IMG/VR virus record: IMGVR_UViG_3300031997_000652
Span: 1 to 31,177 of that record
Reading direction: 5' to 3' (one strand)
Length of the DNA stretch: 31,177 nucleotides
Source: a virus
The translations under genes and the position numbers were made by a program. Below the pieces are notes generated by a model, which did not search any database, was not told the origin of the DNA, and worked only from the letters and a program-made list of their open reading frames with translations. Positions 4,624 through 16,962 of the stretch are shown in pieces; the first letter of the stretch is position 1; every line of letters starts with the position of its first letter.

Positions 4624-5661
4624 ATGTCAGACAACCTTATACCCATTAAAGCCTTTCTAGGAAAATATTATCCTGAATTAAGCTACTCATCCATTCAGGA
4701 AAAATATAAGAATACTGGTCTAGGTACATTTTTCGAACAACGATTCTTTATTCAGGGTAATAAGGCGCAGATGGTTGTGGATTCGAGTTTACGTGGATTA
4801 ATTGCTATTATCTCCGGAAACGAAGTACAGATTAGTCAGGAACTTTATGACCATCCGAATATTACAATAACTAATTCTCTAGAAAATAAGAATCAAAATA
4901 GTAATCCACGAAGTTTATATAATCCTGATGTATTCTCTACAGTGGCATATCTTATATGTCAGAATCATACTATGTTTCAAATTGTTGGCGAAGTAGATGA
5001 ACCCATATATCTGAAATATAGATCGGATTACGAAACCTTTTATAGCTCGGTAGTGGTAGTTGAAATACCCACTAATATCGAAGTTGAGATTGTAGAGGAA
5101 ATTGAAAGTTATAGTGCCTTGAATGCTGTGACAAATTATATCTTACAACCTACAGCAAAACTAAATCTTAGAACATTCTACCAGAATCATGTATCGGCAT
5201 TGTCGTATTTCTATAGGAACATAATAGCACAAGATAATTCATCCTTTACTCATATATTATTTGGTAAGGGTTCATCGAATGTTATTGATGAAAATAAAAT
5301 CCATAGCCACCATCAATCTAAGTCAGAATTCTTAGGAATTGTAAATTCTGATGGAAAGAATTTTCATTCTCTTTTATTTGTACAACCCGGAAGCGAAACA
5401 TATTCCATAAATGTAGATTATCGAGATGTTCTATTTGGTAAGGCGAATGTAACTTTCTTTCCGGTAATTTTAGGACAAGAACCATCTAATTCTGCAACAA
5501 TATCAGTATCAAATATAACATTAGAAGAAGTTCCATCTGAACAGACTGATGTAGCGATTAAGAAATATCTTAATGATATAATTGAAAGAGCAACACTTGA
5601 TAGAATGGTTGGTGTAGAGAGGTTTTATAATAACAAATCTAAGTTCCTCCATTTTCCATAA
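4624..5661 (+). CDS. Late protein with possible SufB/SufD-like beta-helix (tentative)
   Basis: 345 residues, soluble, rich in beta-prone segments. The middle to C-terminal part (about 150-300) reads like a SufBD core: an aromatic N-H-x-S-x-L-S-Y-F-Y-R strand, a gly/ser-rich turn, IHSHHQSKSEFLGIV, where SufBD proteins have H-x-x-p-x-x-x-S-x-x-x-x-K-G-V, then a regular set of strands ending in a FFPVI element where the family has a P-x-L-E motif. The usual C-terminal SHG motif is not found, so activity like SufD scaffold function is doubtful. It follows a late promoter and precedes SOD. The A-type Fe-S carrier at 16642 makes an Fe-S role more plausible. It could also be an unrelated beta-helical virion protein. 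Confidence 0.35.
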   Translation: MSDNLIPIKAFLGKYYPELSYSSIQEKYKNTGLGTFFEQRFFIQGNKAQMVVDSSLRGLIAIISGNEVQISQELYDHPNITITNSLENKNQNSNPRSLYNPDVFSTVAYLICQNHTMFQIVGEVDEPIYLKYRSDYETFYSSVVVVEIPTNIEVEIVEEIESYSALNAVTNYILQPTAKLNLRTFYQNHVSALSYFYRNIIAQDNSSFTHILFGKGSSNVIDENKIHSHHQSKSEFLGIVNSDGKNFHSLLFVQPGSETYSINVDYRDVLFGKANVTFFPVILGQEPSNSATISVSNITLEEVPSEQTDVAIKKYLNDIIERATLDRMVGVERFYNNKSKFLHFP

Positions 5662-5664
5662 ATA
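5657..5664 (+). promoter_or_regulatory. T4-type late promoter box (CATAAATA) abutting SOD start
   Basis: CATAAATA overlaps the upstream stop codon and ends only 4 bases before the ATG at 5669. With usual late-promoter geometry the transcript would begin at about the ATG itself, i.e. a leaderless message. No Shine-Dalgarno sequence is seen upstream of that ATG. Confidence 0.5.
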
Positions 5665-5668
5665 CAAT

Positions 5669-6223
5669 ATGAATGATCCGACCTCCTTTCGGACTCTGAT
5701 TGAAAAAATATCAGCAGAGAATGAAGTATACAAAATAAAGTTACCGGTTCCGGTGAACCAACTTGCTAATGTCTTTTCTAAAGAGGCAATGGATCTACAT
5801 TATGGTACACTATATGGAAATTATGTAAAGAACGCCCTTGCAGGCGATGGCGAATTTCAGATAGCTGGAGCAAAACTCCATACATTGTTTTTTGAACAAT
5901 TTCAGGAAGCAATTTCCACAAATAACCCAGTTGGTGAAGCACTGACACTTATTAATGATAAATTTGGTAGCTATAAAGCATTCAAAGATGCCTTTATAGA
6001 ATCAGCCATGGGTGTACACGGATCCGGATGGGCATATCTTGATACAAAAGGAAATATTAAGACGATAGCAAATCATAAGGATGTTGGTAATATAGCTCTA
6101 TTGATAGATATGTGGGAACACAGTTACATTTTGGACTTTGGTTCTGATAAGGGCAAATATCTTAAAGATATTTGGAAAATTATTAACTGGAGTGTTATAA
6201 ATAATCGATTAAATAATGGCTAA
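5669..6223 (+). CDS. Fe/Mn superoxide dismutase
   Basis: 184 residues, close to usual Fe/Mn-SOD length once a 20-residue N-terminal extension is set aside. All four metal ligands are present: His44, His71, Asp147 and His151, the last two in the family signature DMWEHSY. Tyr52 matches gateway Tyr34 of the E. coli enzymes, but the gateway His30 position is Leu48. The second-sphere glutamine sites are Gly67 (Mn-type) and His136 (neither classic Fe nor Mn choice, reported in some cambialistic and archaeal enzymes), so metal use is unclear. The enzyme converts superoxide to peroxide and oxygen in the cytoplasm. The C-terminus looks complete (INWSVINNRL) although the HNH gene overlaps its last 8 bases. 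Confidence 0.92.
   Translation: MNDPTSFRTLIEKISAENEVYKIKLPVPVNQLANVFSKEAMDLHYGTLYGNYVKNALAGDGEFQIAGAKLHTLFFEQFQEAISTNNPVGEALTLINDKFGSYKAFKDAFIESAMGVHGSGWAYLDTKGNIKTIANHKDVGNIALLIDMWEHSYILDFGSDKGKYLKDIWKIINWSVINNRLNNG
6196..6203 (+). promoter_or_regulatory. Perfect T4 late box TATAAATA inside end of SOD gene
   Basis: This is the only exact TATAAATA seen near a start on the + strand; it lies 12 bases before the HNH endonuclease ATG. It is also coding sequence (Val-Ile-Asn-Asn) for SOD, so chance is possible. Confidence 0.4.
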
Positions 6224-6677: not shown

Positions 6678-7004
6678 ATGTTCAAAATTACAAATATAGA
6701 GTCACTAGGTTCAGATTACACCATTACCGACCAAACCGGTAAGGTGATTAAAACTATCCAAGTTATTCCTCATACAGAAATATTAGAAGCAGCACTAGGT
6801 ACATTTACAGAAGATTTTGGATCAATCTCTTCTTATCTAGAAAAATCAATTGCTGTACTTTCTGGTTGTGATAAGGTAGATCATTATAAAGTCCTATGGT
6901 ATGCCACCACCGAAGAAGAAGTCGTTCTATCAGAGATTATTGAATTTGCTATCCAGAATGGATATGACAAAATCATTCTTGAACACCTTGAAGAATTAGA
7001 ATAA
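6678..7004 (+). CDS. Hypothetical protein, 108 aa
   Basis: Not recognised. The N-terminus is beta-rich (FKITNIESLGSDYTITDQTGKVIKTI) and the rest is acidic and alpha-prone, ending in EHLEELE. No signal peptide or membrane segment. A GAGG element 9-10 bases upstream can serve as ribosome site, 6 bases after the HNH stop. The last codons contain the -35 element of the promoter for the tRNA-like RNA. Confidence 0.6.
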   Translation: MFKITNIESLGSDYTITDQTGKVIKTIQVIPHTEILEAALGTFTEDFGSISSYLEKSIAVLSGCDKVDHYKVLWYATTEEEVVLSEIIEFAIQNGYDKIILEHLEELE

Positions 7005-7016
7005 ATCTGTTACAAT
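6988..7016 (+). promoter_or_regulatory. Sigma70-like promoter for tRNA-like RNA
   Basis: TTGAAG (6988-6993), a 17-base spacer and TACAAT (7011-7016). The expected start site, about 7 bases after the -10, coincides with G7023, the first base of the acceptor-like stem of the RNA. Confidence 0.7.
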
Positions 7017-7022
7017 TACACT

Positions 7023-7164
7023 GCCCTATTAGCTCAGAAAAACGAACGACCTCTAGACATAAGGCGGCGCCGCCGGCTCAATGACGTTTCTAGTTACACT
7101 GTAGAGAGCAGCCGGCACTTAACCGGACGGACGGTGGTTTGAAGTGTTTCACCATGGGGCACCA
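7023..7164 (+). ncRNA. tRNA-like RNA (tRNA-Lys(CUU)-like ends) with about 63-nt D-loop insertion
   Basis: The ends form a full 7-bp acceptor stem (GCCCUAU with AUGGGGC, one G-U) followed by A plus encoded CCA at 7162-7164. TAGCTCAG (7030-7037) and GTAGAGAGCAG (7101-7111) are the two sides of a normal tRNA D-arm, but about 63 extra bases lie between them, including the perfect palindrome GGCGGCGCCGCC (7063-7074). The anticodon-like arm is CCGG-CACUUAA-CCGG; this would read CUU but has A where U33 is invariant. The T-arm-like part has a 5-bp stem (GGTGG/TCACC) but an 11-base loop. A working elongator tRNA is unlikely; it may be a decayed tRNA or a tRNA-mimicking regulatory RNA. No tmRNA tag frame was found. 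Confidence 0.55.
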
Positions 7165-9245: not shown

Positions 9246-9875
9246 ATGTCTACCGTAAAATATCCACGGACATATCATTTGCCGTGGAGCCTAGGAGTAA
9301 CAGACGATGATAAGGTCCTAACAGACCTTTCGTCTTTTGCTGGCCGTCGGATTATTGCTACTAAAAAAGTGGATGGCGAGAATACATCCATGTATAGACA
9401 TAGCATACATGCTCGTAGTTTGGACTCACGTGGCGGGCCCGATCGTGATTGGGTTAAGCAGTTCTGGTCCACTATTGCACATGACATACCGCAGGATTGG
9501 CGTGTTTGTGGTGAAAATTTGTGGGCACAGCACTCTATACATTACACAGACCTACCGTCTTACTTCCTTGGTTTTTCTGTCTGGAATGAGATGAATGTTT
9601 GTTTAAGTTGGGATGATACCTTGCAATATTTTACCTTGCTTGGAATTGCACCTGTTGAAGTCATTTATGATGACATATGGGATGAGAAGAAAATAGCAGC
9701 ATTGGAAAAATCTTTATTAAAGGATAAGGACGAGGGTTATGTAATTCGTCTCGCTGATTCTTTCACCTATGATGACTTCAAAACCTCTGTTGCTAAATTT
9801 GTAAGGAGAAATCATGTGCAGACCGACAAGCATTGGCGCCTGCAAGAATTTATTCCAAACGAATTAAAGAAGTAA
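9246..9875 (+). CDS. RNA ligase family protein
   Basis: 209 residues. The adenylation motif is KVDGENT with Lys41 as likely nucleophile. Further nucleotidyltransferase motifs: RSLDSRGG, WRVCGENLWAQHSI (motif III region), KDEGYVIRL (motif IV) and VAKFVRRNHV (motif V). It lacks the C-terminal domain of T4 Rnl1/Rnl2 and is closer to the compact RNA_ligase family. Likely task is repair of nicked RNA such as tRNA cut by host defence nucleases (known for T4 Rnl1; inferred here). It abuts the previous stop with no gap and ends the operon before a strong terminator. Confidence 0.88.
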   Translation: MSTVKYPRTYHLPWSLGVTDDDKVLTDLSSFAGRRIIATKKVDGENTSMYRHSIHARSLDSRGGPDRDWVKQFWSTIAHDIPQDWRVCGENLWAQHSIHYTDLPSYFLGFSVWNEMNVCLSWDDTLQYFTLLGIAPVEVIYDDIWDEKKIAALEKSLLKDKDEGYVIRLADSFTYDDFKTSVAKFVRRNHVQTDKHWRLQEFIPNELKK

Positions 9876-16048: not shown

Positions 16049-16645
16049 ATGAGAAACGCATTGGTTCCAATCGTAGTTGAACAAACCGCCCGTGGTGAGC
16101 GTTCATATGATCTATATTCACGCTTGATGAAAGAAAGAGTTATTTTCTTTACAGGTGAAGTTGAAGAAAATATGTGTGATGTTATCGTGGCACAATTACT
16201 CTTCTTGGAAGCTGAAAATCCAGAGCAACCGATAAGTATGTATGTCAAGTCTCCCGGTGGCTCTGTCTATGATGGATTAGCGGTATATGATGTCATGCAA
16301 TACATTAAGTGCCCGGTTCATACATATGCTATCGGTTGGGCGGCAAGTATGGGATCGTTTATTGCCCAAGCTGGCGCACCAGGCCACAGATATTTGCTTC
16401 CGCGGACAATGACAATGATACACCAACCCGCATCTGGTACAAGGGGTAAGGTTTCTGATATGGAAATTGACCTCAGGGAAAGTCTTCGAATGAAGAAAGA
16501 GATGACGGAATTGTATGTTAAGCACAATTCCAAGGGTGTAACATACGATCAGTTTGTAACATTGCTTGACAGAGATAAATGGCTAACTGCACCTGAAGCT
16601 GTTGAGCTTGGGTTGGCAGATCACATTGTGGATAAGAGAATATGA
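16049..16645 (+). CDS. clpP: ClpP serine protease
   Basis: 198 residues, close to the usual size and without an obvious propeptide. It begins at once with [22 protein letters not shown]. The catalytic triad is complete: Ser100 in WAASMGS, His125 in MIHQP, Asp176 in LDRDKW; the SPGGSV oxyanion loop is at 68-73. ClpP forms a two-ring chamber fed by ClpA or ClpX. Phage copies may replace the host subunit to change degradation during infection. An AAAGGAAAA site lies upstream. No sigma70-like promoter was found between it and the divergent minus-strand gene. The stop overlaps the next start (ATGA). A phage ClpS is encoded at 4281. Confidence 0.95.
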
Positions 16646-16962
16646 TTACAATTACAGAAAAAGCAAAAGAAAAAATTATATCAGTCCTCACCGAAGAAAA
16701 AGCAACAATGATTCGCTTTGGATTGCAAGGCGGCGGCTGCAACGGATTTACTTATTTCTTTGCAGTTGAAGAAAAACAGGAAGACGATGATTTTGAGTTT
16801 CCTCTTAGCGAGTCGCATAAGATGGTAGTAGATGCGGCGAGTAGTATGTATTTAGAGGAAGCGACGATTGATTACAAGAAAGATATGATGGGTGAGAGTT
16901 TTATATTCAACAACCCGTCGCAGAAAACAAGTTGCGGATGTGGTAATTCTGTAGGTTTTTAA
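16642..16962 (+). CDS. A-type iron-sulfur carrier (IscA/ErpA/SufA-like)
   Basis: 106 residues, the family's usual length. The three cluster-binding cysteines are present: Cys33 in GGGCNGF, Cys98 and Cys100 in the C-terminal [11 protein letters not shown]. The fold elements I-T-I-T-E-K-A and [10 protein letters not shown] match. A-type carriers pass Fe-S clusters to target enzymes. It is translationally coupled to clpP (ATGA overlap), so the two are made together. Phage-borne A-type carriers are known from marine phages; which host or phage enzyme is served is unknown. Confidence 0.93.

Follow-up and report, generated by a model that had tools for sequence, protein, structure and literature searches.

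A structured tRNA-like RNA with a giant D-loop, a candidate tRNA mimic of large tailed phages

The window analysed here, the whole 31,177-nucleotide (nt) stretch of IMG/VR virus record IMGVR_UViG_3300031997_000652, represents 31 kb from the genome of a large tailed phage. At positions 7023-7164 of its plus strand it encodes a 142-nt RNA that resembles a transfer RNA (tRNA) with an oversized D-loop, and the question is what such a molecule might be: an unusual tRNA, the remains of one, a leader of the next gene, or an imitation of a tRNA made for another end. The original prediction, drawn from this DNA alone, had described a promoter, a 7-base-pair (bp) acceptor stem, the two halves of a D arm, a CUU anticodon arm, an encoded CCA, a long D-loop, a replaced U33 and an 11-nt T-loop. 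All of these are present in the window sequence, the D-loop measuring 70 nt and position 33 being A. The parts are listed below together with their conservation in the relatives described further on; double changes are those that alter both sides of a pair.

6988-7016, plus strand: sigma70-type promoter TTGAAG-17-TACAAT with an extended -10 (TGn), lying 6 nt upstream of the acceptor base
7023-7029, plus strand: acceptor stem, 5' strand, pairing with 7154-7160; 7 pairs including one G-U; 98% paired, double changes at 7/7 positions
7032-7035, plus strand: D stem, 5' strand GCTC, pairing with 7106-7109 (GAGC); invariant in all copies and preceded by invariant U8 and A9
7036-7105, plus strand: giant D-loop of 70 nt (64-73 nt in relatives, 101 nt in L025)
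7036-7043, plus strand: near-invariant single-stranded motif AGAAARAY
7044-7049, plus strand: insert helix PD1 (6 bp), 5' strand, pairing with 7084-7089; 88% paired, double changes at 6/6 positions
7054-7057, plus strand: insert helix PD2 (4 bp), 5' strand, pairing with 7078-7081; 86% paired, double changes at 3/4 positions, one A-A mismatch in the window copy
7063-7074, plus strand: insert hairpin PD3, palindromic GGCG-GCGC-CGCC; 98% paired, double changes at 3/4 positions
7096-7099, plus strand: D-loop half (ACAC) of a D-loop/T-loop kissing helix, pairing with 7144-7147; covaries in L018, L025/L031 and L012
7111-7127, plus strand: anticodon arm with loop CACUUAA (A33, anticodon CUU, U36-A37-A38); stem double changes at 5/5 positions
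7128-7132, plus strand: variable region CGGAC, with G46 and C48 kept
7133-7153, plus strand: T arm with an 11-nt loop, which carries the insert GTGT (7144-7147) between positions 59 and 60
7154-7164, plus strand: acceptor 3' strand, discriminator A and encoded CCA (ACCA in 15/24 copies)

None of the searches made with the window copy recovered a known RNA. ARAGORN gave no tRNA call for it, and Rfam 15 held no family at or near the gathering score, permissive thresholds yielding chance matches only. Neither a match to a transfer-messenger RNA (tmRNA) model nor a tag reading frame was found in the RNA. Minimum free energy folding of the window RNA alone gave no signal relative to shuffled sequence (z = -0.07), because the kissing pair and the multi-branched fold escape energy-only folding. 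With both gene finders and folding blind on the window, chance could not be excluded from this sequence alone, and comparison therefore had to decide. A blastn search of isolated phages found no homolog, and the RNA is absent from Paride, the nearest isolate by ligase. A scan of bacterial genomes for the T-arm pattern returned five matches, all of them chance hits outside any tRNA-like context.

Relatives were obtained from a ligase search, which gave 37 loci, and from pattern scans, which added further copies. This resulted in 26 distinct RNA sequences, namely the window copy and 25 others from contigs of related large phages; nearly all occupy the same locus. Twenty-four of the 26 were aligned by hand, each being verified against its contig, and all counts out of 24 refer to these; L numbers designate individual contigs. 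A covariance model scored all 26 copies at 77-163 bits. In the alignment made with this model, which comprised the 26 sequences, 92.2% of the cells at pair positions were indeed paired; shuffled controls reached 80.7%, and sliding the partner strand lowered the figure to 34-45%. Cells with both sides changed numbered 117 versus 34.7 in shuffles, and 23 of the 39 pairs carried changes of this kind. In the hand alignment, double changes were found at 2/5 positions of the T stem and 2/4 of the kissing helix. The D stem never varies, and covariation therefore neither supports nor opposes it. The registers of PD1 and PD2, both mismatched in some phages, were set by eye and are supported by strand-swap and sliding controls. 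The loop of PD3 is self-complementary in 23/24 copies (GCGC or GGCC), and the insert motifs (AGAAARAY, UG and the palindromic loop) are among the most conserved parts of the RNA. In L025 (L025:3416-3588) and L031, the kissing segment is separated from the D stem by some 35-40 additional bases.

On these comparative sequence data, chance is excluded as the origin of the tRNA-like fold. The RNA almost certainly represents a structured tRNA-like RNA of a new family, and this family is very likely functional. The covariance search in relatives, which had been proposed as a check on the locus, thus yielded 26 sequences whose stems are kept by compensatory changes, with no free drift. A decaying tRNA pseudogene would agree with the lack of a tRNA call. 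This reading is refuted by the covariation and retains practically no probability: across the 26 sequences every stem that varies does so with compensatory changes, the promoter is conserved and loops are invariant. Two smaller elements of the original prediction did not hold up in the relatives. The competing helix GCCGGCT/AGCCGGC forms 7 pairs in just 2/24 copies and is not conserved, and the upstream copy of the 8-mer repeat TTACACTG, said to bracket the extra part, occurs in just 1/24. The relevance of the second copy of the 8-mer is limited to its ACAC, which forms the D-loop side of the kissing pair.

This kissing pair was left out of the covariance model, yet it covaries. The usual combination of D-loop and T-loop segments is ACAC/GTGT; it is ACAT/ATGT in L018 and TCGC/GCGT in L025/L031, and a comparison of L018 with L019 reveals a matched change on both strands. 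For L012 the hand alignment gives CCC/GGG; the model alignment places this copy otherwise and misaligns L025/L031 in this region. The marks of tRNA tertiary structure are invariant or nearly so (U8, A9, A14, G15, A21, A26, G46, C48, T54, T55 and G57), with G46 replaced by T in L016 only. In a canonical tRNA elbow, position 56 pairs with G19. Most copies of the phage RNA have a base other than C at position 56, and together with the kissing pair this suggests that a Watson-Crick helix between D-loop and T-loop seems to stand in for the usual G19-C56 elbow contact.

The anticodon loop is conserved in an uneven manner. When changes were counted on a tree of the neighbouring protein, loop positions 32-35 had changed 5-7 times each and positions 36-38 not once, and all loops therefore end in U36-A37-A38. 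This trinucleotide is the signature of tRNAs that read ANN codons. The anticodons found among the copies are CUU, UUU, UCU and GAU, corresponding to the ANN classes Lys, Arg and Ile. L055 and L070 are near-identical: apart from a stretch of the acceptor with compensated changes, they diverge only in the anticodon (UUU vs GAU). A33 is present in 13/24 copies and an 8-nt anticodon loop in 3/24, while U33 is combined with a 7-nt loop in 8/24.

Related environmental contigs extend up to 385 kb and 363 kb, and these two relatives provide the tRNA background against which the RNA can be viewed. They contain 49 and 44 tRNA matches in all, respectively, which are near-complete sets, and both encode tRNA-Lys(CTT), Lys(TTT), Arg(TCT), Ile(GAT) and Thr. 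As the sets are near-complete and include tRNA-Lys(CUU), the RNA fills no decoding gap; it is present as a single copy in each large relative, far from the tRNA region. From fold, conservation and promoter we infer that most copies do not act as normal elongator tRNAs. Both relatives also contain a tRNA with a CUA anticodon (L141:13088-13164 and L145:4485-4561 in the 385-kb and 363-kb contigs; ARAGORN call: Pyl), a possible amber suppressor.

The promoter evidence consists in conservation, since a consensus scan alone was not significant (3 sites vs 2.9 expected). The 17-nt spacer is found in 22/24 copies and the TGn extended -10 in 18/24; in copies with a promoter the -10 hexamer ends 5-7 nt before the acceptor base. 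L010 (TTGACA/TATTAT) and L012 (TTGACC/TAAAAT) keep near-consensus hexamers though the overlapping coding sequence differs, and in L024 a promoter is not recognisable. Transcription is thus predicted to start at the acceptor base in nearly all copies.

As the best explanation overall we tentatively favour a phage-encoded, independently transcribed noncoding RNA that would fold as a tRNA mimic and act in trans, not on the next gene, serving as a decoy or trap for a host factor which recognises ANN-decoding tRNAs through U36-A37-A38. In this molecule a complete tRNA frame would carry a three-helix arm in the D-loop, with the elbow locked by the D-loop/T-loop kissing helix, and the giant arm and rigid elbow may prevent the mimic from entering the ribosome or protect it from cleavage. 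The likeliest target would be an anti-phage anticodon nuclease of the PARIS-AriB or PrrC type. The component claims differ in strength: that the RNA is a non-decoding, trans-acting mimic is probable, and the specific role of a nuclease decoy is more doubtful than the general explanation. The frozen U36-A37-A38 and the A33 in 13/24 copies fit an RNA that is seen as an ANN-type tRNA by some protein, with decoding unneeded. The AriB cleavage site in tRNA-Lys(UUU), Thr(UGU) and Asn(GUU) is U36AAUC|A41 or a close variant of it, and the enzyme seems to touch the D-loop as well (PMC12409363). PrrC cuts tRNA-Lys, and phages have been argued to deploy tRNAs against such enzymes (PMC10264068). An RNA ligase gene 2 kb away in the same phage was also counted in favour of this explanation, as was a second RNA family of like plan, described below.

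Several points weigh against this explanation. No known nuclease, host or defence system is linked to these phages. The invariance of U36-A37-A38 could serve modification or folding, and the 8/24 copies with U33 and a 7-nt loop, together with CCA in 15/24, mean that some copies might be charged or decode. In L017 and L023 the flanking genes are kept before the ligase and the RNA is missing, so it is dispensable there. Finally, the insert contains conserved single-stranded motifs (AGAAARAY, UG and the palindromic loop), which point to a partner for which a decoy role does not account. They are the basis of the main rival, a role as the RNA core of a phage ribonucleoprotein or as a regulatory RNA, in which the tRNA frame would provide stability and 3' processing and the D-arm would serve as the binding site for a protein, for another RNA or for a further copy of the same molecule. 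The high conservation of these motifs, the PD3 loop with its self-complementarity in nearly every copy, and the gene for a 108-amino-acid protein that adjoins the RNA wherever inspected all speak for it. Such a role leaves the frozen U36-A37-A38 and the kept anticodon arm unexplained, however, and the 108-amino-acid protein is without a significant fold match; we consider it rather unlikely.

The remaining alternatives were judged less probable still. For a functional if unusual tRNA, aminoacylated and able to read ANN codons, one can cite the presence of all stems, A73 and CCA in most copies, the anticodons themselves, U33 in 8 copies and the behaviour of ARAGORN, which made tRNA calls for 8/24 copies once both D and T-loop inserts had been cut. 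Against this stand A33 in 13 copies, the 8-nt loop in 3, the 70-nt D-loop, the loss of the G19-C56 contact in most copies, redundancy with canonical tRNAs of the same phages and a location outside the tRNA cluster, which together make a decoding role unlikely. When the D insert only was cut, ARAGORN calls were 0/24. This result bears on a precursor from which the D-loop insert would be spliced and the tRNA sealed by the phage RNA ligase: the ligase gene at 9246-9875 suits the idea, but the T-loop insert and A33 would stay behind, the insert is conserved in structure and sequence like a functional domain, and splicing signals were none seen, so that splicing appears highly improbable. A cis-acting leader for the next gene, operating for example via processing or the competing helix, would agree with a start codon that often lies 3-14 nt past the RNA. 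The next gene is a zinc-finger-like open reading frame in most copies; in L003, L008, L024 and L025 a different frame follows, L021 and L032 have yet another, and in L054 the next gene is the ligase. The RNA is thus retained in at least four different downstream contexts, which makes a switch for any single gene very unlikely; moreover, several next genes have their own promoter, and the competing helix is not conserved. The zinc-finger-like frame, replaced in several phages, was set aside as a regulated gene. Hence, among the three options offered by the original prediction, a mimic occupying tRNA-binding proteins is the one best supported, by inference only, whereas the switch has been weakened and decay has fallen away.

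How the candidate mimic relates to known RNAs was assessed by comparison with four systems. Canonical tRNA (RF00005) shares with it four stems, most tertiary marks and, in most copies, CCA, and differs by lacking the 70-nt D-loop with three helices, the 11-nt T-loop, the kissing helix and the A33 of most copies. In tmRNA, as here, tRNA-like ends flank a large insertion; the insertion of the mimic is in the D-loop and has no tag frame, and the 363-kb relative has a separate tmRNA. The tmRNA gene of this relative is located at L145:7527-8040 and encodes the tag AANDAVFALAA. The T5 tRNAs for Lys, Thr and Asn that act against PARIS are likewise phage RNAs of the ANN class with a proposed role in countering tRNA nucleases (PMC12409363, PMC10264068); they are true tRNAs replacing cleaved ones, whereas the mimic is most likely non-decoding.

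The closest layout is that of T4 RNA C (rnaC, species I RNA) of the Tevenvirinae, a 139-nt phage RNA of unknown function (PMC9697503, PMC3014915). It can be drawn with a stem resembling an acceptor, a D-like stem of 3 bp around a 64-nt segment, an anticodon-like arm and a T arm, and compensatory changes in five Tevenvirinae support the acceptor, anticodon-like and T arms (T4 rnaC at L095:1409-1547). Unlike the mimic, rnaC has a canonical T-loop without the GTGT insert, two U-U mismatches in the acceptor and a 10-bp anticodon-like arm with the loop CGUCAA, and it sits in a tRNA cluster. Covariance model R1, run with filters off, matched T4 tRNAs and not rnaC at E below 10. By this model T4 RNA C would be related in layout only and not a homolog.

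A pattern scan further revealed a second family in other phage contigs (L107:179-309, L116:234-364 and L129:793-924). Its members have an acceptor of 6-7 bp, GCUC/GAGC, a D-loop of about 60 nt and a PD1-like helix in which the two sequences (L107/L116 and L129) differ by compensatory changes. Their T-loop AGAGGC is complementary to GCC(U) in the D-loop, GGTACC is conserved in the insert, and the ANN classes are Thr and Arg. As there are only two distinct sequences, the shared mimic plan is suggestive. At a further locus, L123:750-873, which ARAGORN did not call, the frame resembles tRNA-Thr(UGU) with C33; the T-loop is canonical and the D-loop spans about 56 nt. The giant-D layout appears to recur in at least one other phage group. 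That the main family, the second family and T4 RNA C form one recurrent class of phage giant-D tRNA mimics, all of them decoys against host nucleases that target ANN-decoding tRNAs, is a speculative extension that we regard as improbable on balance. The finding itself is an RNA family supported by covariation and without an Rfam entry, whose architecture of a D-loop arm plus a D-loop/T-loop lock was not found described in the literature searched. It offers an entry point to the long-open role of T4 RNA C and testable predictions for phage defences that target tRNAs.

With respect to its genomic setting, the RNA usually lies between the gene for the 108-amino-acid protein and the ligase region. 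Two neighbours in the window are of relevance here:

6678-7004: gene for the 108-amino-acid protein, upstream of the RNA; adjoins the RNA in every relative inspected
9246-9875: RNA ligase gene, about 2 kb from the tRNA-like RNA

The 108-amino-acid protein has no Pfam and no PHROG match; its AlphaFold model is confident (predicted local distance difference test score 91) and has no significant match in the PDB. By DNA ligase, the nearest isolates are Pseudomonas phages of the Paride/PA5oct group at about 43% identity, Paride (a PA5oct relative) reaching 43.6%. The neighbourhood is partly common to this group and comprises Hsp20, a ClpS-like gene, ligase, exonuclease, dCMP deaminase and MazG. 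Elsewhere in the window, a SufBD-core-like protein is followed directly by an Fe/Mn superoxide dismutase (4624-6220) in what is a phage genome, and the product of the gene at 16642-16962 resembles, by sequence, an iron-sulphur carrier of the HesB/IscA type.
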